Shown: positions 4,803 through 47,841 of the stretch, piece by piece
Layout of the letters: every line of letters begins with the position of its first letter
Numbering within the stretch: the stretch's first letter is position 1
Source of the DNA: Myxococcales bacterium
GTDB lineage: Bacteria > Myxococcota > UBA727 > GCA-2721815
Assembly (NCBI GenBank): GCA_002721815.1
Contig: PBLQ01000003.1
Location: 13,888 to 77,887 of the forward strand
Length of the DNA stretch: 64,000 nt
Direction: 5' to 3'
Translations under genes and position numbers: made by a program
The notes under the pieces: model-generated
Database searches by the model: none
The model's input: the letters and a program-made list of their open reading frames with translations, nothing else
Told to the model about the DNA's origin: nothing

Positions 4803-4888
4803 GCCTTATTTATTTCTAGGCGGGGGAGCGGTTTATTGGCTTTCGTGCTAGTCTTTCCGATGCACTTTGTTTCCCAAGGATGGATCAA

Positions 4889-20100: not shown

Positions 20101-23100
20101 GACCCTTCCTATTGCAGTTCCATTCAGCAGCCGCTTTGGGGCGATGGCGTTACATCACATGGGACTGTAGGCCCGTTTGCCAACGGCGAATGGATGCACC
20201 TGGCGGTCACACTGGAAGACCGGGAAGGGGATACCTATTTGCGATTGTACCGTGATGGAGAGGTGCTGCCTTTCTCTGCTGGTGCGGGCGGTGCATTGGT
20301 GGAAATGGATGAGATGTTGGTGACCTCCGTAGCGGATAACCCCAATGGCGTCACGACCCATTCCGTTGGCTATTCAAGTGGCACGCAGGGGCTATCGGTA
20401 GAATTAGACAACTTTAGGGTTTGGGGCCAAGTTCGTTCTCAAGAACAAATCCAGAAATACCGTTTCCAGCTGGTGGAACCCGACAGTTACGGTCTGGCGA
20501 TCCAGTTGGATTTTAATCAACCGTATGTGGATGGCGGCGTATTTCGAGTTCCTAATTGGACGCACGCCTGTCTCGAAGGTGCCTCAGAGTGCATTCATGC
20601 GCAGCTCAAGCGCTGTGAATCAAATTCAGGCTCTGGAGGGTATTCCTGCAGTCACAATGTTGGTGACGGCGGACTGGAATCCATCGATTTTGATACTGCT
20701 TTCACCATGGCGGCAGCCACTGAAAACCTGAGCCATTTCCTTTTTCCTCGAGGAGACTGGTTTGAAACCAAGTATTCGCAGGCCCAACTTTACCCAGACC
20801 TGTGGTTGTCAGAGGACGTGGAACTGCCGTTTCAGCTGTCCTGGATCGACCCAGATGCAGATGTTGAACCCTATGTCAGTCTCGGCCTCACCGATGACTC
20901 GGCCAACTCTGATGATTTTTCAGTGATACCTGGTAATGCAGGTGCAGGGTCATTCGTTTTAAGACCAGAGCAGGATTTCGTGGGGCAGGTGACCCTCGAA
21001 GGCGGCTTATCATTTACCAGTGGTCTCAATACGGTCGAGCTGCCCGAAACACCCACCTTTCAGGTGAATGTGGAAGATGTGAACGACCCGCCCGTCGCGC
21101 TGTCTTTTGACCCCGCCCCTGGTTGTTACGGATTGGCTGGCTTCGAAGAAGAAAATGCCGAGAACGTTTGCACCGTCAATTTGAAAGATCTTTTTTTAGA
21201 CCCAGATTCAAGCCTGGATGACATGACCGTTACCATTGAACACGAATATGCCGAGGGCTCTTTTGTTGAAGTGACTTTGTGCGACGATAACGTGTCCGAT
21301 ACGATATGTTACCAGTTGAGCGATTTGGCAACCCCAGAGTACGATACTGGTGACCTGGATTTGGAGATTCGTTTCGCGGGTGATGGGGATGTTGATTGTT
21401 TGGATGTGGGTGAAACCTATATCTATGACTTTCGCATCACTGTGCTCGATCAAGAGAACCTTGGCGATGAAACCCGTGTGGCCATTGAAGTGACCGGCAA
21501 GGCCGATAAACCTATTGCCCTGAACACCAGTATTCAAGTTGGTCAAGACATTACTGAAGCTGAGCAAGACAACGAGGGGCAGCAAATCTCGGACATCCTC
21601 ACCACGTTTGATTATACAGACCAAGACTTTTGTGATGGAGATTCCGGTGGGCAGGGTGGCCTCTTTGTTGATCAAGTGCTGAGCGGACATTGGCAATATA
21701 AGTCACATCAAGGTGCGCCGGCATGGCTAGACATGGAGCCCACAGCGTCCACCGTGGGGCTTTACCTCAATCACACCGCGATGATTCGAGTGCGCCCTGA
21801 TGGGATACATGGTCTTACCAATGCCAACTTCAACGCACATGTTTGGGATGGCAACGAAGTGTCGGACGATTCGATTAATTTTTACCAAAACATTGTTGAA
21901 CTGGACGGACCCGTGACCTTGGCAACGAACGAAAGTCCCTCACTGACTTGTGAAGGATGGTTTGAAGATGCGCTATTGCGTCAGGGGGCGATGAATACTT
22001 GTTCTTTTAACTTGGTTGATTTGTTTTCCGTCCCTGCGCCCCAAGACCAATACACGGTGGCTTTGGCCGCATCGGCGGATGGGACTGGCCTCGTCTCTTG
22101 GGCAGAGTTGGTATCTGCCAACATGGACGAGACGGGACGTCCCGCAGAAATCGCCGGTGATGCACAGGTGACTTGTTTGGGCGGAGGTGAAACGTCCATG
22201 CATACCTTGTACGTGGTGGCGACTGACGAGGGAGATCGGCAGTCGGTGGCAGCAGTGGCCGTTTCTGTGAATGGTGTGAATGACAGTCCGGTGGTTCATG
22301 GTGCTGGATTCACTTTGCCGGAAATTGACGAGAACAGCTTTGACTATGAAGGAGTACTTTTAGGACCCTTACTCAATGACCCATCTGTTATCTCTGATGC
22401 AGATCATTGTGAAGAGATAACCACTTTGGGATTGGCAGTGGTGGGAACCACTGGTTTGCCCTGGGAGTATCGTCTGGAGGGGACCAGCAGTTGGACGGTT
22501 ATTGAGCAGCTGAGCGCGCAAAACGCCATTCTTCTGCCGGCAGGGGTCACGCTCAGGGCACAGCCGAACGGGCAATCCGGGGGAATGGCCACGCTGACGG
22601 CTTACGCTTGGGATGGGACCGGTGGCCTGCAGCCCTTCACCCCGCAAGACATTTCAGATGCCGCTCTTCGTGGGGGCATGGCGAGCTTGTCCGCTGATGC
22701 GGTCACTCTGGAACAAATGGTTTTTGAGGTCACCAACCCACCGGTGTTGACGGCCGGTACCCTAGAAATCGCGGAGTCGGCCAACGTGGGTTCAGTGTTC
22801 GAACATCCCGTTGGGATTGAAGACGAAGATGGCGGGAACTACGTATTTGGCCTCGTGACGCCGCCCGCAGACCTGCCTTTTTCAATGGACCCTCAAACGG
22901 GGGCATTAACGCTGGTTGCATCTTTGGACTACGAGGTTCAACCTTCCTATGAACTCACTTTACGGGTCACCGATGGGGCTGAAGATGTTGATGTGGCGCT
23001 TAATATTCAGGTCCTCAACGAGAATGATTCTGCACCGGAAATTAGTGGTTGCCCGTCCGAGCTGTTGTTGAACGGCAGCGAATCGGTGGATATGGTGCTG

Positions 23101-25779
23101 GTCAGCTTAACCGTGACCGACCCGGATGGTTTGGTAGACGATACGCTCGTGGTGACCTTAGACGATCAAAGTGTGAACCCACCCCTGGTTCAGTTGGCTC
23201 AAACGTCGAATTATGAGTTACTTTTGAACAGAGATGTGTCGGGGTACGTTTCTGATGGTCATGACCGTCAGTTGTCGTTGATGGTCCGGGCGCATGATGG
23301 TGTGCATGAATCTTCCTGTGATATTGATTTGTTCATCAACCAAAGACCGGTGATCAACACGGACGCATTTGAGGACTCACTGACCCTTGTAGAGAACGCA
23401 CCTGGCGGAACGGTAATTGGAGACCCTGTGGTGGCCGATGACCCTGAAGGCGACCCCCTTACTTTTTATGCGTTTCGCTATGCCACGGGTAATTACGAGA
23501 GCGGTCATTTCAACCTCTCCGAATCGGGCGTCTTTTCTTCAAAACTGGCATTGAATTACGAGCTTTATCCAGCCATCACAGTCTGGGTGGAAGCGGACGA
23601 TGGTGTGTCTCGCAGTGAACGTGTGGCAGTGAGCATTCGCATTCAAGATGTGGATGAGCCCCCTGAGTTTAACGATACATTTATCGACATTCCGGAGACG
23701 GCCAATGTCTTGGTGCCATTTGGTAATTTGAATGCATCAGACCCTGAGGGGGGGGATATCGCCTATTCCAGTTTGCCGCATGACATCATTGAAATCAGAG
23801 ACGATGGCGCCTTGTTCCTTAAAATTGCTCCGGAACAACCAGGGTGTGAATCTTTTTCATCGAGCTGCCGGCCTTTGTACCCACTCCACCTGCTCGATGA
23901 CGATGAACGGTCATTTACGATTTTCGTATCCGCCAGTGATGGGAACCACGAGACGACCACTTCTCTTTCTCTAATGGTGGTAGAGGTGGATGAGTCGCCG
24001 ATTATTCAAGTACCTGCCACGTCTGCTTGGGCCCATCCTTTGTGGTTGGTACCCCCGGCAGAAACCGTTTTCTCAGATGGTGGGGCGACCGAGACAGCGC
24101 AGGCTGTTCACTTTTTCCTTCAAGGGGATGACCCAGATCTGTTGAATGCGCCCGTCTCATTTGTCATCCAGGGTGATTCAGAGAGCCCTGTCGCCATTGT
24201 TCAGAATAGCCAGGCGGTGTTGACCATGAATGACGTGAACGCTGGTGTGTATAATTATGAGTTAGAAGCCACCGATGGCACGCAGTTCACCCAGAAGGAC
24301 ATCACTTTGTATTTGTTTGATTTGGATTCTGATGAAGACCGTTTGTCTGACAGCATTGAAATCGCGCACGGTTTGTTGTCGGATGTGGCCGACAGCGATG
24401 GGGATGGCATCGACGACTTTTTAGAGTCTGGGTGTGATGTGCCCATACGCACCAACGCCATGCCTCCCGTGCAAATCAGCACAGATTTGTCATGTGGCAG
24501 CTGGCATTCATGCGGGTACGCAAACATTGCTGTGATCGATCAATGCACTGGGTTGATAGATACTGACGATGATGGGGTTTGGGATGCAATAGATGAGGAC
24601 TCTGATAATGATGGGCTCCTCGATGTCATCGAAGCGCCGGTGTGGGACGAAGACTTAGATGAGGATGGCTTGATAAACCTCAGAGACCCTGATGCTGATG
24701 GTGACGGTGTATTAGACGGGATTGATAACTGTTGGCGATTGGCGAACGCGGCGCAAGTGGATGTGGATGCCGATGATATTGGAGACCTTTGCGATGATGA
24801 GGTGGTGCATCCAGAGGGCTTTGCCGATGGCGGAAGTCCAGATGGCGGTGCGTCCCAATCATTGCCTACCGATGCAGGCGAGATGGCGTTGGACGCGGGT
24901 GGGCCACTCTACGAGCTGGATATCCCAGACGCCAGCGCTCCTCCTGCGTCCCCAAGCGATGAAGACGACGATGGGGTCATGTTGGGCCAGGACAATTGCC
25001 CCTCGGTGGCCAATACAGATCAAGCAGACCAAGACAGTGATGGGCTGGGTGATGCCTGTGATCCAGATACGGAACAAGATGGTGTGCCCAACGATGAAGA
25101 TAATTGTCCGGGTGTTTATAACCCAGAACAGCAAGACCTAGACAATGACGGTCTGGGAGACTCTTGTGATACGGATCGAGACGGAGATGGCATCATTGAT
25201 GGGCTGGACAATTGCGCTTACATCTTTAACCCGGAGCAAACAGATGCCAACAACAACAACATTGGCGATGCATGTGAGGGTGGCTCAACGCCCAGCACAG
25301 GCAACGCGGTTGATGGTGGGGGGGCCACAGCTCAAACAGACGCGGGCGCAGGGATGGCACCAGACCAAGATTTCGATGGTGTGGCCGACGAAGAAGACAA
25401 TTGTATCGCCGAGTTTAACCCTGAGCAAAACGATTTAGACAATGATGGGGAAGGGGACGCCTGCGATGTGGACCTTGATGGCGATACGGTAGAAAACGAA
25501 AACGACAACTGCCCCTATGTGGCCAATACAGCGCAAACAGACTCTGATGCGGACGGAATGGGCGATGCATGTTCGCCAGTGCCCACATATCTTGATGCTG
25601 GAATGATGGACGGGGGTTTCTACTACCCTCAACCCGATCCAGTGCCTCCAGGGGCGGCCGGGATGGCCTGCGCCTGTGAGCATGTCTCTAAGCCAAATTT
25701 CCAAGGTGGTTGGCTGGGGCTGTCTTTGCTGATTTTGGCATTCACACGCCGCCGGTATTCGCATATTGCGAGGTTCTAG
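17173..25779 (+). CDS. Giant LamG/cadherin/TSP3 surface protein with MYXO-CTERM-like tail
   Basis: I place the start at 17173, where ATGA overlaps the previous stop and AGGA lies eight bases upstream; this gives 2,868 residues and a signal peptide ending near AAAPSVATT. Modules (approximate residues): a LamG/concanavalin-like jellyroll at 37-215; a beta-rich region with a small Cys knot; a second LamG-like domain at 865-1085; cadherin-like and related Ig-like repeats at 1300-2280, with joints such as NDPPV, NDSPVV and NENDSAP; thrombospondin type-3 calcium repeats at 2405-2800 (DNCP-x5[14 protein letters not shown]); and a tail with paired Cys, a hydrophobic segment and terminal Arg residues (FTRRR). 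That tail resembles the MYXO-CTERM surface-sorting signal. It is probably a carbohydrate- or cell-binding adhesin, acting with the lipoprotein encoded upstream. Confidence 0.88.
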
Positions 25780-26686: not shown

Positions 26687-27394
26687 TTAGGCATCGTAAC
26701 CGCCATGGTCTTTTGCCCAAGCAAGATGGGCATCGAAACCACCTTGCCCAAATAAGGTGTTTCCCCATTCACGCTGGGATTCTGGAGAGGTTACGCCCAG
26801 GGCGTCGGCCAATCGATTCATATACGAAAAACAGCAAACCACGTGGGTGACATCGTGAATTTCAAGATCGCTGAACCCAGCTTTGCGCATCTGTTGAACG
26901 TGTTCACTGTTGTTATGACGCGGGGCCCAAGCGTTTTGTGCAGCAAAATGCAGCATGGCCACATCTTTTTGGGAGAAGCTGGGCGCCACCTTTTGTAAAC
27001 GCGCAATGTGCATTTGCAGGGCGTGCACCCCTTTTTTGAGGGGCAGCTCAGCTGCTTGCCGGCCCGCTTCGAGCATCAGATGGACAAAACCAGCCACTTG
27101 ATCGGGACCACCGTCCCATTCGTCACGCAAGAACCCTGCGTGCGAAACCGTTCAGTAAAAGCAGTCGTTCCATGCGCTCACCGCCGTGGCGATGGTTTCT
27201 TCGCGGATACGGCCCAGACTGGAACCGCCAAAGGTCACACTGAAATTCATTTGGAGTACGCTTCGCAAGGTCTTTGGGCTTGGCTTCATCACGCCCACTA
27301 CCGCCGGCACGGCCCGGCCCGCTTGGCGATAGGGTTTGGTCGCTCTTGCGAGTTCTGGGGTCTCTTCATCACCGGGCAGTTTAATCCATGCCAT
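26687..27394 (-). CDS. AhpD-like peroxidase-related enzyme, predicted selenoprotein (CxxU)
   Basis: A single reading frame of 235 residues runs from ATG 27394 (AGGAG six bases upstream) to the stop at 26687-26689. It is broken only by a TGA at 27152-27154, codon 81. Residues on both sides match the carboxymuconolactone decarboxylase/AhpD 'peroxidase-related' family: TFGGSSLGR-x-REE-x-IATAVSA-x-ND before it, TVSHAGFL after it. The family active site is C-x-x-C followed by a His; here it reads C78-F-Y-TGA81-T-V-S-H85. The TGA thus sits exactly on the second catalytic Cys, and a SECIS-like hairpin follows. I read it as selenocysteine. The enzyme should be a cytosolic thiol/selenol peroxidase. 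Annotation pipelines would split it into two fragments (26687-27130 and 27152-27424). The alternative, a nonsense mutation at precisely that codon, is much less likely. Confidence 0.85.
27120..27145 (-). promoter_or_regulatory. Candidate bacterial SECIS element of the AhpD-like selenoprotein
   Basis: On the minus strand a stem CACGCA/TGCGTG (27142-27137 with 27129-27124) closes a 7-nt loop GGGTTCT. The stem extends by TCG/CGA past one bulged A. It begins six bases after the TGA, and the loop begins 15 bases after it. The loop starts with GG, and the core (GCA-GGGTTCT-TGC) closely resembles the E. coli fdhF SECIS core (GCA-GGTCT-TGC type), which binds SelB. Folding was done by eye. Confidence 0.75.
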
Positions 27395-27609
27395 TGCTTC
27401 TCCTGTGAGAAAGAACTTTAGCATTTTAACTTACAGAAAAGAAGGCTGCTTTAGACTTTTCCCCGATGGCCCGAATTTTTTACAGGGCATGAATAGGGCC
27501 GCAGGCGCTCAAAAACTGGTTTCCCTTCACCGTTATGATACAAACAGGCTGCGAGGGCACCTGGTGGCGCCACGCACGCGTATCTCTCATCACCATTCAG
27601 AGGTTTCTT

Positions 27610-29584: not shown

Positions 29585-32500
29585 ATGAGAATATCTATTA
29601 AAAATAGCCTGTGGGCCCTGGCGTTAGGGATCTTGTCGGGGTGTGCTTTCGATGCGGATCTGCCCGACAATGTGGCCATTGGCTGTACCGAGCTTTCAGA
29701 TTGTCCCGAAGGCTTCACCTGCCGCCAAGATGTAGGCAAATGTGTGCCGCTCGAAAACAATGATTTGGCGAGCCCCGAAGTGTTGGGTGATATCACCGTC
29801 TCTCCCGCACATCCAGGCTCGGTGGGGACAGCGTTCACCCTCAAATTTCAGGCCAGTGAACCCCTGCCAGAAAACAACAACCTTGGAGAGGACAACCCGC
29901 AGGTCAACATGAACTGCGGCGCCGCAGATATCCCCTGGGAAAAAAGCGGTACAGAAGAATCCGCCAGTGAAACAGAAGGGGCCACTTACACTTTTTCGTA
30001 CGTGGCCCAGGGACCGCCGCACGAAATCCCTTATCAGCCTTGTACCCTCGAAATCATCATGGAGGACCGCATGTTCAACGGCGGGCTCGCCACTGCGCCG
30101 CCCGTTTCATTTGACTTTGAAGCACCACGTTTGCTGAACACGCCCCTGTTACTGTCGCAAGACCGGCTCAAATCGGGGGACGACACACAACTCAGACTGA
30201 CCTTTGATGAAGATGTGGTCAGTGGCACCTTAGAGGTCGTGCTGCAAAACGTTGATGGAGAAGAGGTCAACGGAGAATTTGGTTTTGTTACCGAAGGTGT
30301 CCCAGACGCAAGTGATGATGAAAGCACAACGAACTTCACCACCTACGATGCAACGCTGACTTACGACCTCGAAGCACTCGATTGGTCTGCAGGCAACAAT
30401 GCCACTTACCCCATTCAAATCCGGGCACAAGACTTGGCGGGTAACCTACTCACACAAAACATGGTGCAAGCCCTCCGGTTAGACAACGAAGCGCCAGCTT
30501 TGCAAACTTTAACCACGCCACTCAACGTTGGCATCGCCTCTAACAACGAACTCAATGGTGAGATGCGCTCGGTGCAGAGTTTGCGCATCGAGATTGAAAT
30601 GACCGAACTCATTCAGAGCAATATGGAAACGAATGAGCCGCGGCTGAGGGCCAGTTGCTCAGAAGGGCTATGCGAAGGGCAAGAGCCAGCGTCTTTAAAC
30701 CTTCTCATGGCAGACGACACCCTTGGGGTGACGATGCTGATCTACGAATTGGATTACCAGTCCCAGCAAATGGCCGATGGGATTTACGACTTCGCACTTG
30801 AGGGCGTATTGGATCAAGCAGGGAACCCTGCGGCTGACATCATCAACGAGATCGAACTCGGTAACGTCAAACTCGATAATGTACCTCCCGTTTTTGAAAG
30901 TTTGTCATTAGAAAGTAACAACAGCTTTGTTTCCTTTGAAGACGTGAACATTTCCTTCTGTCTGACGGAAAAAGCAATGGGCGGTTTGGCGGTGACTTTA
31001 CTGAGCGAGCCTCAGAGCGCAGCACTGGTTTGCGGTTCGGCCGCCAGCAACATTTGTAATGCACATTATTATTCCTGTACGTTTCCGCCGGGGGTGTCGG
31101 TGACCGATTCTCGTAATTTTATCCCAGTGACATTTCAGGCCACCGATGCCGCTGGCAACGTTGGGTTTGCCAATGGGCAAGTCCAAATGGATTTGAGCCC
31201 GCCAGAGATTCTCTCCGCCGATTTTAGCCTCGGAACGTATCGATCAGGGCAGTCTGCGGTACTCACCCTCACGTTTAATGAGGCGCTTCGGGCAGAACCT
31301 TCTTTGGGCTTGGATTTTGATTTGGTGAAAACCGTGAATGGGGTGACCACCGCGCTAAACTGGAACGAGCATTTTGTTTTGGATGCCACCAATAACCCCG
31401 TTTTTGTGCTCACCTCCGCGGCCCCCTTCGTCCCGGGTGATGATGGCCGCTACGACATCACGATATCCAATGCCACTGATGTACTCGGTCTGAGCTCCAC
31501 GGTAAGTGAAAGCCGCGGGTTTTGGGTGGATTCTTTACCGCCTCATATCTTCGAAACTGAACTGCAAATGGCCGTATTTAGGCCCGATTTCGACACGCCC
31601 GCTTGCCTGACCCAGGCTGCCAATGGGGGGGCTCTTTTAACCGCCAAACACGAAGACGTCCTCCTCGTGGCCGTGGCCACCAACGAACAAATGTCCGATG
31701 AACGCATTGCGCTCAATTTGGGCAACCTTCAGCTCGAGCGAATTGAAACGGCGTCTTTAGACTCGGACGACCCGGACGGACTGCCGGCGCCCATTTGGAG
31801 GGATTGTTTGGCATCACTGATTGGAGATGGCGGCGGAAATATTGAGGCGGGGGAACCCGCCGAGCCCAGTGAGCCCACTGAACCGAGTGAATCCACCGAA
31901 CCCAGTGAGTTCACCGAGCCCAGTGAGCCGGTTGAACCCAGTGAGGCGGACCACGGCGCAACTGCAGTGGACGCAGGCACAACCGTGCCGCAAGCAAACC
32001 TTTACTGGTCAGTGTTCGCGCTGCCTTTAAATCAATCCCTCCTCCGAGAGGGCATCGCTACTTTACTCACGCAGGTGACCGATGGCGTGGGGAACATCGC
32101 AACCAATAGCGACCTCAAGGTTCGGCTGGATTTTTCCGCGCCTACCATCGTCAGTGCGCAAACACCCAAACTTGTATACAATATTAACGAGACGCCAACT
32201 TACGAGTTACAGTTTTCTGAACCCATCTTCGGCATCAACCGCGTGGATCTGCCTGAGGTCTGGGGGACGTTTCAAAGTCTCGGGTCCTGTGAAGGCCTAC
32301 CCAGTGATTGCTCACCCATCAAAGATTTTGTGTTCTACGGCACCTGCGTGAGCAGCGGGGACCAAGGTTGTCTTCGGGTGGCTTTTGACATGGACCCGGC
32401 GTTGGAAAGTGGCGTCATGGATCGTCGGGATACCATATGGTCACTGGTTCATTTGGAAACCGACGTGCGGGACAAAGCTGGAAACGAGATGACAACGTTT

Positions 32501-35500
32501 CACAACTTCGATGCAGACCCTTTTACGCCGTTTAACTGGGACCAAGATGTCCCCTGGGTTGACTCTAACAGCTTGCGCCTTCGTTACAGTGCGGCCGAAC
32601 TCGCGAACTCGGACACCGATGTCAATCGTTTCAGCGCGCAGGCGGGCTTTAACGAAGGCCATTTGCGCGTGGATTTTCACCACATGGACCTGGATGTCTA
32701 CGAAGTGGGTATCATCGTACGCAAAGAAGAGACCTACGCCTCCTATAGTGTCCTCGACGCCGCCCAGGCGGACGAATCCAACGGCTATTTGTCCAGTCAT
32801 CTTGATGTGCAGTTTTGTTTCAACATGGAGTCTTGCGACCACCTCATGGAGGGGAAAGAGATTGCCAGTTATACGGATGGAGCGAGTGTCGATGGGGGTT
32901 CAGTCATTCCGCCCGCCAATTGGCCGTGGTCCCATGGTATTTATGTCATCGAGGTAGAAGTGACGGATATGGCCGGCAATGTGGGGTCTGCCTCTAAGGA
33001 AATCAGTGTTGATTTTCGCGCACCTCGGGTATTGGCGAGCAGCTCCTCATTGTCACCACAATTCGCCAAGGGAGGGGCCGGCCTCAACCTACAGGTGACA
33101 GCCAATGAAAAACTGGCTTCAGATCTGGCTGCTCGGCCCTTTGTGGCCACGGCTTTCTCGGGAGATAACGGTCAAGAGTTCGATGTGGACCTCTTTGATA
33201 TCGATTGCAGTACCAACGGCAATTGCCTGTCAGACGATCAGCGCACGGTAGGCTTTTCGGCACAAGTTCCGCAAGAAGAAACGGGCAACAGTCGCCATGG
33301 GTCTTATGCTGCAAAAGTCTATTGGCAAGATTTGGTCGGCAATGTTTCTGAGCCTGACCTCGATCCAGCAACTTGGGATTGGGAATCTGACAGTTTTCCA
33401 TTCCTCATTGACCGGGTACCGCCCGAAATAAACCTTTTCTTTACCCGCGGGCAAGGGGGTGGCGATGCTGGAGAAGAACTGGTTAAGAGAATCGGCGACC
33501 AACCAGGATATGACACAATTAATTTTCATCTTGATTGGAGCGATGCCATCCAAGCTGACAAGCTCACGCCAGTGTTACCGGAGTCGGCACAGTTGCTCGT
33601 GGGCGATGTTCCCTTCGACCTGTCCACTCAAGATGACAGCGACGATGTGCACCACTGCGAGAAAGTGACCGACGAAACAGGGGCGTGGACAGGTTTGCAG
33701 TGTGATCGCGTGCAATTGGTGGCCTTAATGGCACTTGAGGATGGCGACTATAGCATCACGGCCAGCATTGCGGACCTCGCTGGGAACATTGGTACAGATA
33801 GAGCGCAGCTCGAAGTGGATACCACCGGACCTCTAATCGAAAACCTCACCCTTTCACCCGCTTCAGCGGGGTTGGGTACAGACATCGCCATCAACATCTC
33901 CCTGAATGAACCCGCAGCATCTTGGCCGCAACTGTGTGCCAAAAAGTGGCTTTCCGGCAACAGCGCGTCTTGTACCAGCTCCGAACTGAGCGTGGGGCGT
34001 AGTGAACGAACTGATTTTTTCACCCAGGGTGATGGCCCGGACGTGTCGGGTACGTACCAATGGCTGCACACCGGCGGTAACGAGACCGAAACGGAAGATA
34101 AGTCAGGCACATATTACCTCACGCTGACTTTGGTTGACGAACTTAATAACACGCAGATCTACCTGTCCAATAAGGATGGGAAGTTTTTAAACCTTCGCTA
34201 CATCGAACCAGAAATGAATCATTTCAAAGTGATGGCAGATCGCTACAGCTTCAAATACCCCCACAACAAGATGACCTTTTGCTGGGGGGCACAGGAAGAA
34301 GCTCAAAGAGACGCTGATCCGTACGCTATGGAATGGATGCAGAAGATCGGTGAGTTTTTTGAGGGCAGTGGGGTCGATGGGGCAATACCCATTAGCAGAT
34401 TACCACAAGTCCTTCTGGGGACCCGTATTTTGCTCGAAAAGCCCTGGTTGGATAAGGGCTCTTACCAGTGTGCGGTGCGGTTGCCCTCAGGGGAACTCAA
34501 AGGCTGGCGGTTTGAGGATAACGACTTTGTGGGCATGGGCCACGCTGATGGCGTGCAGCATTTACCGGCTGAAAATGAAGCACAGGCAAAGAGATGGTTG
34601 GAGGACGCTCACGATGACCGCCTTGCCTGTCTCGATGATCAGGACATCAGGGAACAGGCGTTGGCCATCGCTTGCACGGCCTGGATTATTGGCGAGAGTC
34701 CTTACATAGAATATATGCAACCTCTGGGCGGTTCGCAGATTTTGCGGGTGGGCATGACCGATGAGGTGGGCAACAGTGTTTCCGAGCAAACGACGGTGAC
34801 CTTGGACTTTCAGGCGCCCGTGATCGATGAATCGAACTCCTTTTTTACGCCCACTGTGGCCAAAGCTGGGGATGAGATCGTTATGAACGTGGCCTTTAAT
34901 GAAGAGGTTATCCCCGAATCTTTGAGGGCCGTCGTTATTGTCCCGGGCGGCGATGACGACACGAACTTTTTTGCCGAATCAGCAGAGGGCGTCCAGTGGG
35001 CGCACTTGGTGGATGAAAATGACCACAACGGCACTTACAGGGTTCGGTTTGACGCTGAAGACTTGGTGGGTAATCGTACCGAGGCATTGGAGTTCCACCG
35101 TGTATTTAACATCGACACTGCCGCACCGGAAATAACGATTATTAACGCCGCTGAACTGGGCGAAAACACCTACAGTTCTAATGGTGATCATACAAATTTT
35201 ACGGCGGATATTTGTATTAGCGATGTAGAAGTGAACTGGATGGATTTGGTCATGTCCTTTACGCCGTCTTCTTGTAGTTCATCTGGGCCACCGAGTGATA
35301 CAAGCGATCCATGTGGCACTTTCCTCCAATGCACCTGGAGCGCTGTCACCGTTGAGAGCGCGTTAGGTAGTCACGTTACCAGTGCAGCTCTGAGCATCTC
35401 GTATACCGATGTCGCTGGGAATACAGGAGGGGTGACCCAGGTCCTTGATGTAGACTTTTCCGGGCCCTATTTGGTCAGTACCCCGGTTTACACACCGAAT

Positions 35501-38500
35501 CCAGCCACACCGGGCGACGAAATCTATGTGTTTCCTTCTTTTTCTGAAGCCGTGAAACTAAATACTTATGCGCACTACGATGATGCGCTGAAAATACGTG
35601 TTACGGTTCCTGCGACTGAATTTACTGAAGCCTACGATGTCTACGACTTCTTTGAAGATGTGAATAGTACTGGAGACTTTAGACACATCGTCGGAGAATG
35701 GGATATCGACGGCGTGTACCAAGTGGAGTTTAAGTTTGAAGATTTGGCCGGAAACCCAGAATTGTACAGTGATGCGACTGGCTGGTCGAGTGCCGGTACA
35801 TTTGTAATCGACAAGACCCCCCCTGCATTGGAAATCCAAGACAAAGACCATCTGCAAGATGATTTGGTGTACAGCCTCGAGGGATTACACCAGTCCGTTG
35901 TATTTAGCCTTTGTGTCGGCGAGAACGTCACTGCCGATCAGTTAGATTATTCCATCGCTGGCAGCGTGCAGGGCGGCTGTTATATCATTGAACTCGATAG
36001 CGATGTTGGGGATACAGATGATGGATATGGGTCTGGCGATGACACTGGCGGTGGGTATGGCAGTGGCAGTGGATACGGCGATGGCGATAACGATGAGGCC
36101 GATCCAGGGTCAGGGGATGGCTTTGGAGGCGATTCTAATTGTGTGACCCGGTTCGAATGCCTTTATGCCCCCACTGCCATGGACCCTGACGTTTTGGCGG
36201 TGGTTGTTTCAATGACCGATGAGGCGGGCAATGTGGGACAAGACTCAATGGCGCTTCGGTTTGACATGGAGCCGCCACGAGTGGTGAGTGTTTCGAACAC
36301 GCTCATTTCTTACGGAAGAGAAACCGAAGACCACCTGCCTTTACTCAGTCCCACTGCGATCAACGAAGGTGGTAAGGTGCGTTTTGATTTTGCATTTGAT
36401 GAAAGGGTACGCACACGTTTTAATGATGAAGTGGCCATGCGACCGCAGGGGCATGTGTACGAGCCCACGTGTAACAATGAGTTCGGCATGTGGGACAGCA
36501 CTTTTTCAGATGGACAGAGCCTGAGTGCGACCCTACAATTTCATTTGATTGCGCCTTGTGCATCCCCCACCGCTGTGGCGGGTAGCTTGTCCGCATTCGA
36601 TGGTTGTTCGCCTTCTGACCTTCAAGAGGTGGGGTCCACTTGCGAAGATATTTGTGACCCGACGCCGTTGCCGGCGGGGGAATATGTACCGACCATCAAG
36701 GTGTGGGATGAGGCGGGTAACTCTTTTGAACTCAACCCCCATGATGGTTCCAGTGGCAATCTGGTGGGACAGTTTGAGTATGATCCGACGGCGCCCGATG
36801 TTTCGTTGGTGAATGTCGATGACTTGAAACACGTGCGAATGCCATGGGGGGCTGAGGAAAATGGTTATGTCCCAGAGCAGAAAGTGATATCTCAGGCTGC
36901 GAACGCACAAGGGAACTTCAATTACATTGAAAGCAGCACGTTGTTTGGCAACGCAACAAACATGATCGACGAAACAGCCCGGATTGAATTTTTCGCCGAT
37001 GCGGCCGGTGAAACCTTGGTCGGTTACTTAGACCAAAACAACGGGTCCTCATTCACGGTGGAACCCTTGATCGTCGCCGAATCACGGGAACTGTGGTTGG
37101 GCTTGGTGGATACCGCGGGCAATCGTTCGGCCAACCGCTCTCGTGTGGACAATGTGGAATGGGTGGCCACCCTTTATGGAAAAGAGCAGGGGAGTACTTA
37201 CGAAAACCCACATCAGTTTAGGGAAATCACTTCATTCCAGGCCCACGGAGAGCAAGGTGCAGGCAGTGATGTTGTGGGAACGGTTGATGTGGTGGGTGAT
37301 GTTTGTTCTTTGCCCTCAACTGAACAGTGTGTGGGTGGCGTGGCAGGAGGGGACTTCTTGGTGTCGAGTGTGTCGCCTCAAGAATCATGGACCAAAAAAT
37401 CACGTGACCTGACAGACCCACCGAAATGTTTGGACGCGAAAATGGTGTATGACAGCCTCCGGGGCGTGGTGGTTCTTTTCTGTGGGGACAATGCCAGGAT
37501 TTATGAATACGCAAACGGGGTATGGGCTTATGTTCCGCCTCTGGACCCCGAAAATGACGGGAGCCCCGGGCCTCGTAAAGGTTTTGCCATGGTTTATTAC
37601 CCCCCTGGCGGATATACCATTTTGGATGGTGGTCTTTTTAGTAGCTCGAATGGCGGAACGGCCGATTTCGGGGACGTTTCGGAGTGGGATGATCTGGTTC
37701 GAAACGATGCGGATGTTCACGATAATAACTCTGTTTACGCCAACGATGGGCTTGTGAACAATAACACTAAAGACGACAAGGAAATTAAAATCAACGCAAA
37801 CCCCAGTCAATGGATTTGGGATGGGGTGTCATGGCAGAGGAATCGTCTGCTCAAAGAACGAGCCTATTTAGGTATATTCGAGAAACGTCGATATGGGCAT
37901 GAAATGGTTTTCGATGGGAGCTCACAAACAGTCCTCATGGTGGGAGGATGTTTTGACGGCACAGGTGCGACCATTGATTCTTGTGGCCAATGGGCCACCT
38001 TGGGCGAATCTGTGTGCAGTGATTTGTTTTCAGGCCCTTCGAATCCATCTGCACAACCGAGCCAGCAGCGATTCTTGTACCGTTTCGATGGCAAGAGCTG
38101 GGGGAATGAGCTGGGCGAAACCGTGCCCATTGCGCATCCGTCTGCGTGCAATTCGGGGCTGATGTTCCCACAAATGGCCTATCACCGACCTGTGCGGAGT
38201 GAAGCGGGGCCTGTCGTTCCAGGTCACGTGGTTCTATGGGGGGGCATGACCAAAGGGAATGCCAACCCCGACGGTTCCACGGAGATGAATCCGCAACACG
38301 CTCTTTTCGTTATGGACCAGTTTGGAGAATGGAACTATCACAACGACTTTATATGGGCGGCTGGAGATATGCTTTACTACGAACCCAACCTTGAAAGCAT
38401 GGCTGTGATTCGGCCGGAACTAACCACCGACAAGCTTTTGGGCACCTTCAACACAGCATACACGGAGCTATTGCCCAGTTCGTCACCCTGGCTGCCTCCG

Positions 38501-40684
38501 GTATTTAAAACCAATTTCACCCTCCAAGCCGCGTCACAGGCGGGATGGACCCGAACGGTTTATTCCCCAGAGGACAGGGCAACGCTTTTTATGGTTCCCA
38601 TTTATGGAGCCGATGAAGAAGCGGCACCTGATGGCACCATCGATGGAAGTTCCTCTGCAGTGGGGAGCGGCCGTACCTACATCGATAACGAAATGTGGCT
38701 AAGCGGTAATCAGGAATTTTGGAGATTGGCTGGCAAGCGCGCCAATGAACGGCGAGGGCCTTCCCCGGGTTTCGGTTCCGATTTGGCTTCCCAGACAGAT
38801 TTTAATACCAGTTTCAGTGCTGTGGCGATGACGGGCGGATTGGCATTCACCAGTATAGAACCCGGAGATGATTGTTCGGGTGGCAATGAAATCATTTTTG
38901 AAGATGGGGGTGATTTGTATTGTGCCACGGCCTCCGATGAGTTTTGGGTGCAAACAAAAGTGGTGGCCGATTCCGAAACCATGCCAACCACATGCACCGG
39001 TGAAGGGGCCCAGAAGGCCTGGTGTAATCAGCAAGGATGGCGTGCCTACAGTTACCCGACTCACCCGTGGATTGCTCCTGACGGTTCGGTTGTTGATGAG
39101 TTACCATTTCTCGTTGGTGCTCAGGTGGTTTGGGCAGCGCAAAATGGCAGTACTTCAGGCAGCAACAGCGGAGATGGATGGATGATCCTCGGTGGTTGCA
39201 CGGAGTATCAGAAAGTCAACATCACAATGGAGGGCGAAACACTTCAGGCGTCCAAAGCCTGTGAAATGACGGAAGAGGGCCCCTATTGCTATAAATGTGT
39301 TTCGCCGAATCCCCATGTCTACATGCTTGATTCTGGTTGTTTGGCATCCGGTGGCACCAGTTGCGTACAAACCATTTCTGCCAATGCCCCATTAGAAGTG
39401 ACCAATAACGTGTTTCATTCCATGGTTTCCGTGCCCGGCGCAGAGGGCGAGCCTGACCAAATCTATGTTTTCGGAGGCATCAACGATAAGGGGGACTTGG
39501 GTGGCCAAATTACAGGCGAGATGCGCGTGTTTGTGAGGTCAGGGACCACTGCGGAAAACATGGGTTGGACAACCAGAACATGTGCGGACACGTCGAACTG
39601 TCTCGTTGGCGGTCAGGCGGCTACCTGGCCAATCGCCCGAATCGGAGCTTCGTTTATCTACCACAAACCCGCCAACAGCATTCTGATGGTCGGTGGTTGG
39701 CGTAAATGTGATGTCGCTCAACTCTGTGGCTTGGGTGATGAGGTGAAACTGTTTAATGACGTGTGGCGATATGACTTAACCAATCGCGAATGGGGCCGAT
39801 ATTGTGAGGATTGTGCCATGTTCACCAGTGAAGACGGCATCGCTGAGGGCACATTGACCGAACGTTTGTATTCCTGGAGAAACCAAATCAGTGGAATCCA
39901 CGGGCGGCACAAGGTTGATTGGATGTTTAAAGAGAGCAGTGATGAACTGGACAGCGGAAGTGGCGGTTGCATCAATAATATGAATGACGAGTTCGCTTGT
40001 GGCCAATGGGAACTCGGTACAGATGTCTCCAATTTGACCAATGGTGCGTTGCTCGATGGCAGCGACACTTATTACCCCTTTTGGAACGCTGAAAACCGTT
40101 CCCTCAACATTCTGACCGAAAACTTTATCTGGGAGTTAGAAAATAGCCGCAGACAAACACCGGGTGGCATGTTTGTCACCGATTTAAGGGCAACCGATTC
40201 AAGGTTGATCAACACCACTCGTTTTGACGAGAGCTTGATCAATGCGAAAAGCATTGAAGTGACGGCATACGCGTCAGGCTATGTGAGAGACCAGAACTTT
40301 CCCGGTGCATCGCTCAAAATATGGGATGGTTTGAATTGGAAAGTCTTGGTGGAAAATAACGCCAGTTCTTTTCCAGGAAACGAAGTCATGCCCAAAAAAT
40401 TGGTAGCGACGTTGGACCGATTCGGTGAAGATTTAACCCGTTATCAGGCCAATGGCGTGATCCGAGTGGCATTGACCCCGGTGGTGCCAGAAGAAGATAC
40501 ATTGATCAACTGGTCGTCCGAAGTGGTGGTGGACTATATTGAAGTTCGCGTGAATTACGACCTGTCGGAGGCAGGACTCGCATCGGGGGCGAACGGCCAA
40601 AGTGGTGGCGGGCTCTCCAATACGCCGTTTTCCTGTGGGGAAGATGCTTCAGATGGCTCCGATGGTACGGATGCCGGTCCTTAG
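29585..40684 (+). CDS. Giant Ig-like/Kelch lipoprotein (3,699 residues)
   Basis: The signal peptide ends in a canonical lipobox (ILSGC, Cys20). Next comes a short Cys module, C-x4-DC-x2-GFTC-x6-CV, also seen in other lipoproteins here. Residues ~55-2600 hold a long series of Ig-like repeats with a recurring end motif (DLAGN or DEAGN, then FxxDTTAP-type joints) and strand openers such as 'PATPGDE'. Low-complexity inserts occur at residues 757-787 (EPSEPTEPSE repeats) and about 2145-2175 (Gly/Ser/Asp-rich). Residues ~2610-3410 look like Kelch/galactose-oxidase-type repeats (ILMVGGW, NDVWRYD). The end is Ser/Gly/Asp-rich. It is probably a lipid-anchored surface adhesin or matrix protein. The ribosome-binding site before ATG 29585 is weak. 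It is divergent from the Omp28-like gene. Confidence 0.85.
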   Translation: MRISIKNSLWALALGILSGCAFDADLPDNVAIGCTELSDCPEGFTCRQDVGKCVPLENNDLASPEVLGDITVSPAHPGSVGTAFTLKFQASEPLPENNNLGEDNPQVNMNCGAADIPWEKSGTEESASETEGATYTFSYVAQGPPHEIPYQPCTLEIIMEDRMFNGGLATAPPVSFDFEAPRLLNTPLLLSQDRLKSGDDTQLRLTFDEDVVSGTLEVVLQNVDGEEVNGEFGFVTEGVPDASDDESTTNFTTYDATLTYDLEALDWSAGNNATYPIQIRAQDLAGNLLTQNMVQALRLDNEAPALQTLTTPLNVGIASNNELNGEMRSVQSLRIEIEMTELIQSNMETNEPRLRASCSEGLCEGQEPASLNLLMADDTLGVTMLIYELDYQSQQMADGIYDFALEGVLDQAGNPAADIINEIELGNVKLDNVPPVFESLSLESNNSFVSFEDVNISFCLTEKAMGGLAVTLLSEPQSAALVCGSAASNICNAHYYSCTFPPGVSVTDSRNFIPVTFQATDAAGNVGFANGQVQMDLSPPEILSADFSLGTYRSGQSAVLTLTFNEALRAEPSLGLDFDLVKTVNGVTTALNWNEHFVLDATNNPVFVLTSAAPFVPGDDGRYDITISNATDVLGLSSTVSESRGFWVDSLPPHIFETELQMAVFRPDFDTPACLTQAANGGALLTAKHEDVLLVAVATNEQMSDERIALNLGNLQLERIETASLDSDDPDGLPAPIWRDCLASLIGDGGGNIEAGEPAEPSEPTEPSESTEPSEFTEPSEPVEPSEADHGATAVDAGTTVPQANLYWSVFALPLNQSLLREGIATLLTQVTDGVGNIATNSDLKVRLDFSAPTIVSAQTPKLVYNINETPTYELQFSEPIFGINRVDLPEVWGTFQSLGSCEGLPSDCSPIKDFVFYGTCVSSGDQGCLRVAFDMDPALESGVMDRRDTIWSLVHLETDVRDKAGNEMTTFHNFDADPFTPFNWDQDVPWVDSNSLRLRYSAAELANSDTDVNRFSAQAGFNEGHLRVDFHHMDLDVYEVGIIVRKEETYASYSVLDAAQADESNGYLSSHLDVQFCFNMESCDHLMEGKEIASYTDGASVDGGSVIPPANWPWSHGIYVIEVEVTDMAGNVGSASKEISVDFRAPRVLASSSSLSPQFAKGGAGLNLQVTANEKLASDLAARPFVATAFSGDNGQEFDVDLFDIDCSTNGNCLSDDQRTVGFSAQVPQEETGNSRHGSYAAKVYWQDLVGNVSEPDLDPATWDWESDSFPFLIDRVPPEINLFFTRGQGGGDAGEELVKRIGDQPGYDTINFHLDWSDAIQADKLTPVLPESAQLLVGDVPFDLSTQDDSDDVHHCEKVTDETGAWTGLQCDRVQLVALMALEDGDYSITASIADLAGNIGTDRAQLEVDTTGPLIENLTLSPASAGLGTDIAINISLNEPAASWPQLCAKKWLSGNSASCTSSELSVGRSERTDFFTQGDGPDVSGTYQWLHTGGNETETEDKSGTYYLTLTLVDELNNTQIYLSNKDGKFLNLRYIEPEMNHFKVMADRYSFKYPHNKMTFCWGAQEEAQRDADPYAMEWMQKIGEFFEGSGVDGAIPISRLPQVLLGTRILLEKPWLDKGSYQCAVRLPSGELKGWRFEDNDFVGMGHADGVQHLPAENEAQAKRWLEDAHDDRLACLDDQDIREQALAIACTAWIIGESPYIEYMQPLGGSQILRVGMTDEVGNSVSEQTTVTLDFQAPVIDESNSFFTPTVAKAGDEIVMNVAFNEEVIPESLRAVVIVPGGDDDTNFFAESAEGVQWAHLVDENDHNGTYRVRFDAEDLVGNRTEALEFHRVFNIDTAAPEITIINAAELGENTYSSNGDHTNFTADICISDVEVNWMDLVMSFTPSSCSSSGPPSDTSDPCGTFLQCTWSAVTVESALGSHVTSAALSISYTDVAGNTGGVTQVLDVDFSGPYLVSTPVYTPNPATPGDEIYVFPSFSEAVKLNTYAHYDDALKIRVTVPATEFTEAYDVYDFFEDVNSTGDFRHIVGEWDIDGVYQVEFKFEDLAGNPELYSDATGWSSAGTFVIDKTPPALEIQDKDHLQDDLVYSLEGLHQSVVFSLCVGENVTADQLDYSIAGSVQGGCYIIELDSDVGDTDDGYGSGDDTGGGYGSGSGYGDGDNDEADPGSGDGFGGDSNCVTRFECLYAPTAMDPDVLAVVVSMTDEAGNVGQDSMALRFDMEPPRVVSVSNTLISYGRETEDHLPLLSPTAINEGGKVRFDFAFDERVRTRFNDEVAMRPQGHVYEPTCNNEFGMWDSTFSDGQSLSATLQFHLIAPCASPTAVAGSLSAFDGCSPSDLQEVGSTCEDICDPTPLPAGEYVPTIKVWDEAGNSFELNPHDGSSGNLVGQFEYDPTAPDVSLVNVDDLKHVRMPWGAEENGYVPEQKVISQAANAQGNFNYIESSTLFGNATNMIDETARIEFFADAAGETLVGYLDQNNGSSFTVEPLIVAESRELWLGLVDTAGNRSANRSRVDNVEWVATLYGKEQGSTYENPHQFREITSFQAHGEQGAGSDVVGTVDVVGDVCSLPSTEQCVGGVAGGDFLVSSVSPQESWTKKSRDLTDPPKCLDAKMVYDSLRGVVVLFCGDNARIYEYANGVWAYVPPLDPENDGSPGPRKGFAMVYYPPGGYTILDGGLFSSSNGGTADFGDVSEWDDLVRNDADVHDNNSVYANDGLVNNNTKDDKEIKINANPSQWIWDGVSWQRNRLLKERAYLGIFEKRRYGHEMVFDGSSQTVLMVGGCFDGTGATIDSCGQWATLGESVCSDLFSGPSNPSAQPSQQRFLYRFDGKSWGNELGETVPIAHPSACNSGLMFPQMAYHRPVRSEAGPVVPGHVVLWGGMTKGNANPDGSTEMNPQHALFVMDQFGEWNYHNDFIWAAGDMLYYEPNLESMAVIRPELTTDKLLGTFNTAYTELLPSSSPWLPPVFKTNFTLQAASQAGWTRTVYSPEDRATLFMVPIYGADEEAAPDGTIDGSSSAVGSGRTYIDNEMWLSGNQEFWRLAGKRANERRGPSPGFGSDLASQTDFNTSFSAVAMTGGLAFTSIEPGDDCSGGNEIIFEDGGDLYCATASDEFWVQTKVVADSETMPTTCTGEGAQKAWCNQQGWRAYSYPTHPWIAPDGSVVDELPFLVGAQVVWAAQNGSTSGSNSGDGWMILGGCTEYQKVNITMEGETLQASKACEMTEEGPYCYKCVSPNPHVYMLDSGCLASGGTSCVQTISANAPLEVTNNVFHSMVSVPGAEGEPDQIYVFGGINDKGDLGGQITGEMRVFVRSGTTAENMGWTTRTCADTSNCLVGGQAATWPIARIGASFIYHKPANSILMVGGWRKCDVAQLCGLGDEVKLFNDVWRYDLTNREWGRYCEDCAMFTSEDGIAEGTLTERLYSWRNQISGIHGRHKVDWMFKESSDELDSGSGGCINNMNDEFACGQWELGTDVSNLTNGALLDGSDTYYPFWNAENRSLNILTENFIWELENSRRQTPGGMFVTDLRATDSRLINTTRFDESLINAKSIEVTAYASGYVRDQNFPGASLKIWDGLNWKVLVENNASSFPGNEVMPKKLVATLDRFGEDLTRYQANGVIRVALTPVVPEEDTLINWSSEVVVDYIEVRVNYDLSEAGLASGANGQSGGGLSNTPFSCGEDASDGSDGTDAGP
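31853..31945 (+). repeat. In-frame EPSE/EPTE tandem repeat
   Basis: Degenerate 9- to 18-bp units encode about ten PSE/PTE steps inside the giant Ig-like lipoprotein. Such Pro/Glu/Ser runs act as stiff extended spacers and may vary in copy number between strains. Confidence 0.8.
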
Positions 40685-44902: not shown

Positions 44903-45026
44903 ATAAGATGCTAGAATTAAGGGACTTTTTATAAGGGGTGCCCGACTCAGTATTTTGACCGATGGCCATTCAGCGGGTGGTTTGGGACCTTATGTCACCG
45001 TGTTTTTCTTTGTTGAGGGGGCTAGG

Positions 45027-46682
45027 ATGGTTCGGACTCTTCTTCTTTTTAGTTTGCTTTTTCTGGTGTCGGTTGCCTGCGCTGGGCCTGAGGCACCGGT
45101 GTCTGACACACCCGAAATATTGCCGCCTCAACAAACCAATTTCATGCCCATCGACAATCAAGATGGCCAAGAGGGCCAACCCTGCGGCATGAACGGTGAA
45201 TGTGACGAAGGTCTGACTTGCGTGAGTAACCTTTGTGTGAATTTGGCGTCGCTGGGAGATAGCGAAGACGATGTCGATGAGGGTGATGATAACGCTCCAG
45301 ATGGCACCTCGGACGATGGCCGCGACGATGGAACGAACGAGCCCCCTGATGACGAGACCGCTGATGACGCCGGGGTTCCAGCAGTCGCTGATCCTGATGA
45401 TATCAGCGACGATGATGAAGATGACCCAGACCTTCCAGTGAACGACCCTCCCAGTGCGGATGGTGGCGTAGCGGATGTTGACGATACGCCCACGGCCGTG
45501 ATTGAGGGTTCGCCTTGCGACACGGACTTGGAACACTGGTTTGGCCAGGGCAGCTGCGAAGAAGGCCTCGTCTGCATTCCAGGTAACATTGTGGGCGCTG
45601 GCGTGTGTCGCAAAAGCTGCGAGTCAGTAGGGGAAGATGATTTGCCGGCAGAGGACGCTGCGGTGTGCACCGACGCTCTCACTTGCCAGACACTCTATCC
45701 CAACACTTTGAGTGGGTACCAAGACGGTTTGATTGCGGGCAACTATGCGATGGTTTGTTTGGAGCAGGTCGAGGATTTACAAACCCCGTGTCACGCTTTG
45801 TACGATACCGACGCATGCGCCCACGGGCGTGATTGTCAAATCGTCGATTATTATACGGTCTATGCGCCCGACGGGACCCTGGCAGATTTAATGTTCAATG
45901 AGTTGCGGTGTCGCGAAACCTGTAGCTTTGACGATTTTGGTACTTGTTCAGGTACCGACAGCTGTCTGAGCAGCGAAGACCCCATCATGGGCTTCGATAT
46001 TGAGTGGGAAGGGGATGATCCCACCACCGAGGTATACGAGGCATATATTTGCGAAAAAGAAGCTTGTGATGATGACGACCTGAGCACTTGGTGCAGTTGT
46101 GACGCGGCCTACGAGTGTTTGGCCACCACCGATGGTTTCGCCCATTGCGGACGTTTTGTTTCAACGGGGTGGTGCGCCAGCCCGGTTGACCTCTTCAATA
46201 CCGACGATTGGAGCGCTGCGCAGGCCCTTGGCTGGCCCGAAGACAAAATGTGCGATGAAATACACGAGAACAGATTGTGTGATGACCAGTTGTTTCGGGA
46301 TGATAGCGTGGATGCCACCTTGGCATGTGTGGGTGTTTCCAATACCTCCACCATGGGGATTTGCATGGCATTTTGTGAAGTGCCCGCTGACCCCAGCGAC
46401 CCCACCGAGATGGACTTTTTCGGAACGTGCCCCAGTGGGTACGAATGTTCTCAAGACCTGGCGGTGGCGATGGTTTTCGGGCCTTGGACCGATGGGACCA
46501 GTCATGTGCTCAGCCGTGATGAGGCGCTCACGTGCAACTCATTGACCTGTCCCGAAGGCACAGAATGCTCGGCTTGTGGCATGCCAGGCGCCCAATGTGG
46601 CGTGATTCCCATCGATGCGTTTGGCAACACTTTCAGTGGCTGCTTTGTACCGTACAGCTTTTGTCAGATGGGTAACCAGTAA
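45027..46682 (+). CDS. Cys-rich lipoprotein with acidic linker
   Basis: The ATG at 45027, preceded by GAGGGGGC, gives 551 residues; upstream in-frame codons lack export features. The signal peptide ends near VSVAC (Cys18). A short Cys module follows (EGQPC-x5-C-x2-GLTC-x4-C), then a very acidic Asp/Glu linker of about 110 residues, then a long domain with over thirty Cys in pairs such as CSCDAAYECL and CPEGTECSACG. Many disulfides are expected. It is likely to be exposed on the outer membrane. It is the first gene of a same-strand group ending with msrB and lies 112 bp before the predicted UxxU selenoprotein. No known enzymatic motif. Confidence 0.75.
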   Translation: MVRTLLLFSLLFLVSVACAGPEAPVSDTPEILPPQQTNFMPIDNQDGQEGQPCGMNGECDEGLTCVSNLCVNLASLGDSEDDVDEGDDNAPDGTSDDGRDDGTNEPPDDETADDAGVPAVADPDDISDDDEDDPDLPVNDPPSADGGVADVDDTPTAVIEGSPCDTDLEHWFGQGSCEEGLVCIPGNIVGAGVCRKSCESVGEDDLPAEDAAVCTDALTCQTLYPNTLSGYQDGLIAGNYAMVCLEQVEDLQTPCHALYDTDACAHGRDCQIVDYYTVYAPDGTLADLMFNELRCRETCSFDDFGTCSGTDSCLSSEDPIMGFDIEWEGDDPTTEVYEAYICEKEACDDDDLSTWCSCDAAYECLATTDGFAHCGRFVSTGWCASPVDLFNTDDWSAAQALGWPEDKMCDEIHENRLCDDQLFRDDSVDATLACVGVSNTSTMGICMAFCEVPADPSDPTEMDFFGTCPSGYECSQDLAVAMVFGPWTDGTSHVLSRDEALTCNSLTCPEGTECSACGMPGAQCGVIPIDAFGNTFSGCFVPYSFCQMGNQ

Positions 46683-46794
46683 CCATTGGCTCCTCAGGAG
46701 CCTGGTCCGCAATTACCGGCCTGAAATATCTGTCCCGATACACTTTTTACGTGCCAAAACACGTTTTTTTGATAGGTTGGCGACTGGAGGCGTT

Positions 46795-47841
46795 ATGTTT
46801 CGTAACATTCTGTTTTTATTGCTGGTTCCCATTGTGATGGGGTGGGCCGGCGGCGCGTCGGGCAGCACTGTCTGATCGGGCTGAACGAACCCCAACCTCC
46901 CGGGTGGAGGCGATAACTTAGGCATTACGCAGACTGACTTTGGCAGTTTTCGCCTCGGTTTGTCATCCATGCTGTCGACCTCTCATACATCGCATTATGT
47001 GGACCCTGCTCAATACGAGCCGGGCATCCCCGCTTCAGAGCAAGCAGACCAACATGTGGTCGATTTCATGTTTTTTAATTTGATGCCGCAGTTCAATTTT
47101 TATTTTTCGCCGAACTGGGATGTTGGCTTTCAGCTTCCCGTGAGAATGGCCAATATCAATGCCGAGTTTTTGGGGTTCGACGGCGAGGTATTAGACGCTT
47201 TCTCGAGTATTCATCACCGCACCGAAACATTGGTCGGCTTGGCAGACATTCCACTGGACGTGGGGTGGACGGTACAGAAACCTCTCCCCGTGGGGCATCA
47301 GTTAACTTTGCGTTTGGGAACCACCTTACCGGTGGGAAAAACCGAACCCAATCCCTTTGAGTTGGGGCGACAAGGCAAAGACCATCAACACATCTTTTTT
47401 GGAACGGGCACCTTCAATCCCACTTGGTCGTTATCCTACGTTTTGGTTTTGGGGGAGCACCAGCTCTTTCTTTTTGGTGAAGGTCTTCATGCGTTGTATG
47501 AAAACGACGAGGGTTACCAAAGTTACAGTATGGTCACTTCAGGGTCATCCTTCAACTACGCAATCAATCGCGATTGGCAGCTGTCAGCAATCCTAACGGC
47601 ATTTAAAGAGTGGCCTGCGCGGTGGGGTACGGAAATTGCTCGCAACAGCGGTCGGGTGGATATCATACCAGGAGCTGGTGTTCGTTGGCTCACCGAATCG
47701 GGTTCAAACATCAGCCTTTCTGCGCAGTTTCCCATCACTGTAGCTACCGATGAGGGGAAAATGCGAATGCCTTTTCTCATCAGTCTCGAGATGAACTGGA
47801 TGGGTGAAATGTTTGCCCAAGGTCCAAAAACCACAAATTAA
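46795..47841 (+). CDS. Outer-membrane barrel-like protein, predicted double selenoprotein (UxxU)
   Basis: An ATG at 46795 with GGAGG four bases upstream opens a signal peptide (MFRNILFLLLVPIVMGWAG). The same frame continues through TGA codons at 46873-46875 and 46882-46884 (residues 27 and 30) into a long open frame to 47841, 348 residues in all. The motif reads U-S-G-U-T-N-P-N-L-P immediately after the probable cleavage site, where a CxxC pair would fit. The mature part is barrel-like, with SIHHRTETLVGLAD and HQHIFFGTGTFNP motifs that I recall from myxobacterial outer-membrane proteins. Without recoding the gene would begin at a TTG (46960) lacking a signal peptide. A hairpin follows the second TGA. 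I infer a metal-binding or redox Sec pair at the periplasmic N-terminus. No other frame disruption is seen. Confidence 0.78.
46896..46910 (+). promoter_or_regulatory. Candidate SECIS hairpin of the UxxU protein
   Basis: CCTCC (46896-46900) pairs with GGAGG (46906-46910) around a CGGGT loop. The loop starts 16 bases after the second TGA, almost the same spacing as in the AhpD-like gene, and contains the GG expected for SelB binding. It is 25 bases from the first TGA, which has only a weak hairpin of its own, so how both codons would be read is unclear. Folded by eye. Confidence 0.55.

Follow-up and report, generated by a model that had tools for sequence, protein, structure and literature searches.

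An open reading frame of 348 codons, running from an ATG at position 46795 to a TAA at 47839-47841, was identified in the window, the term used here for the whole 64,000 nucleotide stretch of contig PBLQ01000003.1 that was analysed. Its only in-frame stops are two TGA codons (U27 and U30), between which TCG and GGC keep the frame (Table 1). A preliminary description of this DNA had read a ribosome-binding site and a signal peptide in one frame through two TGA codons, these being the only stops among the 348 codons, with a hairpin starting 11 nt past the second of them; each of these readings was borne out.

Table 1. Features of the double-Sec barrel gene and its surroundings (positions in the window)
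Feature	Position	Strand	Basis or remark
Shine-Dalgarno GGAGG	46786..46790	+	4 nt 5' of ATG; sequence
Complete CDS, 348 aa, two predicted Sec, TAA stop	46795..47841	+	End-to-end alignment with 24 relatives
Signal-peptide-like segment MFRNILFLLLVPIVMGWAGGASGS	46795..46866	+	Sequence; in relatives AxA right before the C/U motif
Predicted Sec codon UGA 1 (U27)	46873..46875	+	Column TGA/TGC in 25/25 members
Predicted Sec codon UGA 2 (U30)	46882..46884	+	Column TGA/TGC in 25/25 members
bSECIS-like hairpin CCUCC-CGGGU-GGAGG	46896..46910	+	Loop 16 nt from UGA 2 and 25 nt from UGA 1; covaries in relatives
Predicted 12-strand beta-barrel, residues 51-338	46945..47808	+	AlphaFold; Foldseek
Conserved HHRxE motif, residues 140-144	47212..47226	+	Family alignment
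Conserved HQH motif, residues 197-199	47383..47391	+	Family alignment

The gene is flanked upstream by one for a 575 amino acid Cys-rich protein (44955-46682) and downstream by Caroten_synth and MAPEG genes, none of which was seen beside the family elsewhere. Three giant open frames (4880-17176, 17137-25779 and 29585-40684; 2880-4098 amino acids) were also noted in the window, the scanned portions showing DUF4215, Laminin_G_3 and Ig-like domains, and these frames probably encode large surface proteins. Pfam and NCBIfam searches with the window protein returned no match, a PDB sequence search gave nothing useful and Rfam identified no relevant family over the gene region.

Profile searches of 195 Myxococcota genomes and one public contig yielded 25 full-length members of the family, including the window protein, to which the other members show about 26-36% identity in the 25-sequence alignment. 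The motif [C/U]xx[C/U][S/T]NPxL was found right behind the signal peptide in 25/25 members, with both motif columns being invariant (Cys or Sec) and Cys encoded by TGC. Thirteen members are of the UxxU form, nine of the CxxU form and three of the CxxC form; on the family tree these states are clustered, yet have switched several times. Near or fully invariant His residues were identified in the barrel, namely H67, H87 and those of the HHRxE (140-144) and HQH (197-199) motifs. Alignment of homologs at residues 27 and 30 had been suggested as a check, and the Cys or Sec pair present in every member leaves the proposal unrefuted. A translation start solely at 46960, raised at the same time as a possible objection, is untenable because the segment upstream of it, with the signal peptide and the [CU]xx[CU][ST]NPxL motif, is conserved.

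A hairpin with bSECIS geometry was found 11 nt past the second site in all Sec forms (22/22) and is missing from the Cys forms (3/3). Published criteria for this element are a loop of 3-9 nt with a G in its first two positions, a stem of at least 4 bp and a distance of 16-37 nt from the UGA (PMC13188914). Among the 22 Sec forms the hairpin is mostly CCUCCC-GGUC-GGGAGG or a near variant, and its loop lies 16-17 nt from UGA 2 and 25-26 nt from UGA 1; one hairpin fits both codons, since both distances are within the published range. The one hairpin may serve both codons; a separate SECIS for UGA 1 was looked for and none was found. The hairpin of the window (C896-C900 paired with G906-G910, loop CGGGU at 46901-46905) is, with 5 bp, the weakest of the family. 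At -6.2 kcal/mol alone and -7.3 kcal/mol in a 42-nt fold it narrowly misses the energy cut-off (≤ -7.5 kcal/mol) that is reached in 21 relatives.

When compared to synonymous-codon shuffles, the hairpin of the window alone was no better (P 0.46), and hairpin energy taken one sequence at a time was not significant for most members. The case for the hairpin rests on covariation and on presence and absence, as these single-sequence energy tests are mostly not significant. Among 16 Sec forms that belong to one type, swaps between CG, GC and UA were found at the paired third-codon positions 12-27 and 15-24, with 13 two-sided changes observed against 3.2 in shuffles (0/500), a control that can be inflated by the relatedness of the sequences. 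For this reason more weight is given to the vanishing of the signal when the register is slid and to the loss of the hairpin in Cys forms. Val is GTG and Arg is CGC in the two Cys forms that share this peptide, by which the helix is broken, where Sec forms use GTC and AGG/AGA. The Arg codon in the hairpin was identified as AGG or AGA in Sec forms L035, L037-L039 and L047 and as CGC in Cys forms L029 and L034. In members whose hairpin encodes Arg, codon choice thus follows the SECIS.

The host genome of the window is myxobacterial (4.6 Mb, 98% complete) and was found to encode SelA (353.8 bits), SelD, a SelB with SelB-wing domains whose gene is convergent with selA, and a tRNA-Sec (71.7 bits) with a readable UCA anticodon situated directly upstream of selA. 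Absence of selA, selB and selC, which had been named as grounds for abandoning the Sec assignment, is thus not the case. Transfer RNA-Sec was identified in every Sec-form genome searched, and the sole genome without both tRNA-Sec and SelA harbours a CxxC form, but is just 69% complete. As a SelA match was obtained in 151/195 Myxococcota genomes, the presence of Sec genes alone is not discriminating.

It is hardly credible that the two TGAs are something other than Sec codons, whether ordinary stops, traces of a pseudogene, sequencing errors, Trp codons or untranslated positions ahead of a start at TTG 46960, even though the hairpin of the window does not stand out from its shuffles by itself. 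Speaking against all of these, both TGAs are present in thirteen members and one in nine, always in the same two Cys columns, and the pseudogene reading was rejected. TGA as Trp was rejected because TGA terminates 5/23 ordinary genes here, and hence is not a general Trp codon, while a start at 46960 was rejected on the conserved segment upstream. The genome holds the full Sec machinery, and the window contains another selenoprotein gene, of a type already known. Given columns that are Cys or TGA in 25/25 members, a hairpin in all Sec forms and the machinery present, the earlier reading of a UxxU motif is upheld, with both TGAs being almost certainly decoded as Sec on this comparative evidence.

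The second selenoprotein gene (26687-27424, minus strand, TGA at 27154-27152) encodes an alkylhydroperoxidase/CMD-related product with the motif DCFYUT (CxxU). It has a bSECIS-like hairpin (-9.5 kcal/mol, loop 17 nt past the UGA), and its product scored over the cut-off of TIGR01926 with a partial match to NF041238 (AhpD_rel_CFYUT).

AlphaFold modelling of the window protein gave a barrel of about 12 strands (residues 51-338; mean pLDDT 85, pTM 0.81) with a low-confidence N-terminus (pLDDT <50 at residues 15-33). The top Foldseek matches were FapF and the COG4313 channel 4rl8, the latter with TM scores, normalised by target, of 0.70 for the window protein and 0.74 for a fused relative; a viral fold library returned generic barrels only. 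The initial impression of a barrel-like protein is supported by these results, and the protein is very likely a 12-strand outer-membrane barrel. In the COG4313 channel the N-terminal ~14 residues lie inside the lumen and occlude it from the periplasmic side, and uptake of hydrophobic molecules has been proposed (PMC4493636). By analogy, the Sec-containing N-terminus, which is disordered in the model, may be placed inside the barrel lumen, where H67, H87, HHRxE and HQH could meet the selenols.

A thioredoxin domain was found before the barrel gene or fused to its product in 23/25 loci. In 19 of these, one clipped by a contig end, the product of the directly preceding gene is lipoprotein-like and has a C-terminal thioredoxin domain carrying WCxPC, and in the other four the domain is fused to the C-terminus of the barrel. 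The N-terminus of the partner is an HMA domain (MerP/CopZ-like) in the lineage nearest the window, represented by L021 and L060 and, HMA-like by sequence, L054, and is a Cys/His-rich segment in other loci. No linked thioredoxin partner is present in the window; an HMA-thioredoxin ortholog was located on another contig of the same genome (L080:7137-7820, E 3e-54). Genome G039 stands apart in that a specific ortholog of the partner was sought there and not found.

Heavy-metal transporter genes were identified in just two of the loci examined, and not in the window; many loci have unrelated neighbours. In L021 the barrel/thioredoxin pair lies near a MerTP-like fusion as well as a P-ATPase of the Zn/Cd/Hg type, and behind the L071 pair come genes for an outer-membrane factor, a CusB-type adaptor and a CusA/CzcA pump. 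To our knowledge, the barrel and the thioredoxin lipoprotein are not known parts of the MerT/MerP, CusA/CzcA or Zn/Cd/Hg P-ATPase systems that they adjoin in these two loci. The cluster around the UxxU barrel of L021 (684-7461) was also seen to contain a DF-family (seleno)protein fused to a thioredoxin-like domain.

Export, the barrel, linkage to thioredoxin and Sec decoding at both sites are supported by comparison of the family members, and the double-Sec barrel is best explained as probably taking part in thioredoxin-coupled handling of soft metals and/or redox at the outer membrane. The exported protein would carry UxxU at or near its mature N-terminus with the 12-strand outer-membrane barrel behind it, both UGAs being decoded by SelB, tRNA-Sec and the single hairpin 11 nt past UGA 2. 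As in the channel described above, the two selenols would reach into the lumen from the periplasmic side and come close to the conserved His motifs. The thioredoxin-domain lipoprotein, with its metal-binding-type N-domain, may then reduce the selenols and/or exchange a soft metal with them, an activity suggested by gene linkage, and the function of the whole would be to deal with soft metals of the Hg/Cu/Cd type or with thiol-disulfide redox. Functional coupling of the barrel to thioredoxin is quite likely, and the selenol pair may be the substrate of the thioredoxin. A metal role of the barrel has about an even chance of being correct, and the odds are similarly balanced for a heavy-metal or redox module of the myxobacterial outer membrane, consisting of a barrel with an N-terminal diselenol in its lumen and a metal-binding thioredoxin lipoprotein that would load or recharge it. 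The preliminary guess of a metal or redox function gains support from the almost invariant thioredoxin partner and from the HMA and heavy-metal genes at some loci.

Spacing of the UxxU/CxxC type is classical for redox. Together with a thioredoxin adjacent or fused in 23/25 loci and the many partners without a recognisable HMA domain, it agrees with a pure thiol/selenol relay without a metal role, in which, for example, oxidised substrates would be reduced at the outer membrane and the lipoprotein would recharge the barrel. This is considered unlikely in view of the HMA domains in the L021 and L060 partners and in the ortholog of this genome, the Cys/His-rich N-domain of other partners, the MerTP, P-ATPase and CusA/CzcA neighbours and the conserved His motifs of the barrel. 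Much less probable still is that the selenoprotein takes up small hydrophobic or metal-organic molecules in the manner of a COG4313 channel, its N-terminal Sec pair forming a plug under redox control. The fold matches 4rl8, and the N-terminal residues in the lumen and the hydrophobic uptake proposed for that channel (PMC4493636) would suit such a role, but the sequence of the window protein falls below Pfam PF13557 and no aromatic-degradation context was seen among the neighbours.

Comparison to known relatives showed that the COG4313/PF13557 channels (Pput2725, PDB 4RL8; SphA; TcpY) share the 12-strand barrel and a short N-terminal segment before strand 1, whereas the invariant Cys/Sec pair, the HHRxE and HQH motifs and the thioredoxin partner are additions of the present family. 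No curated PF13557 match was obtained for the window protein, and one of nine members tested gave a match (E 0.0039). The UxxU metal-binding (seleno)protein NF041115 shares the UxxU and is weakly similar to the HMA domain of the partner, but it is a small HMA-fold protein without a barrel, while here it is the barrel that bears UxxU, CxxC being found in the HMA partner. UxxU is likewise shared with Prx-like selenoproteins (PF00578), which are thioredoxin-fold enzymes of an unrelated scaffold. Predicted outer-membrane barrels with Sec are found in NF041027 (GSU2204, MtrB/PioB) and NF049945 (TonB-dependent receptor FCYXU); these are other barrel families with one Sec each (PMC13188914), and NCBIfam showed no match of the present family to them.

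Of the 119 prokaryotic selenoprotein families catalogued in 2026, none fits a double-Sec COG4313-like barrel; the catalogue includes these two other outer-membrane barrel types, each with a single Sec, and records UxxU for Prx-like, metal-binding and FmdB proteins (PMC13188914). NCBIfam release 20 (June 2026) was found to hold no barrel model for the family and gave no match over cut-off for the window protein; in relatives, the fused domain produced weak matches of the thioredoxin type, and beyond these there were just isolated ones under the cut-off. The claim that an exported UxxU on an outer-membrane barrel was undescribed stands in part: the double-Sec COG4313-like barrel is uncatalogued, but barrel selenoproteins (GSU2204, FCYXU) and UxxU are each known elsewhere (PMC13188914). 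The family is best read as an uncatalogued selenoprotein family.

If the proposed heavy-metal or redox module is real, it would give the first example of an outer-membrane barrel with two Sec residues, along with a case of one bSECIS decoding two UGAs nine bases apart. The family would extend selenium chemistry to the COG4313-like barrel, which as a scaffold has no catalogued selenoprotein, paired with a thioredoxin lipoprotein, and production of the barrel would hinge on selenium supply because both Sec sites precede it. Standard stop-codon annotation would split the gene into a tiny signal-peptide ORF and a barrel without its start and active pair. The natural UxxU, CxxU and CxxC versions, with the SECIS kept or lost to match, offer a ready test bed for two questions, namely what makes selenium worth its cost to bacteria and by what means a single SECIS can serve two UGAs.

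More distant, all-Cys barrels of the same phylum were found to have an N-terminal Cys motif too (e.g. ACATCACGDP); their neighbours were uninformative. The N-terminal Cys pair may be general across the barrel superfamily, since such Sec-less barrels begin with Cys motifs, the mature part starting with CSVCGCGDP or CATCACGDP in L049 and L051-L053.
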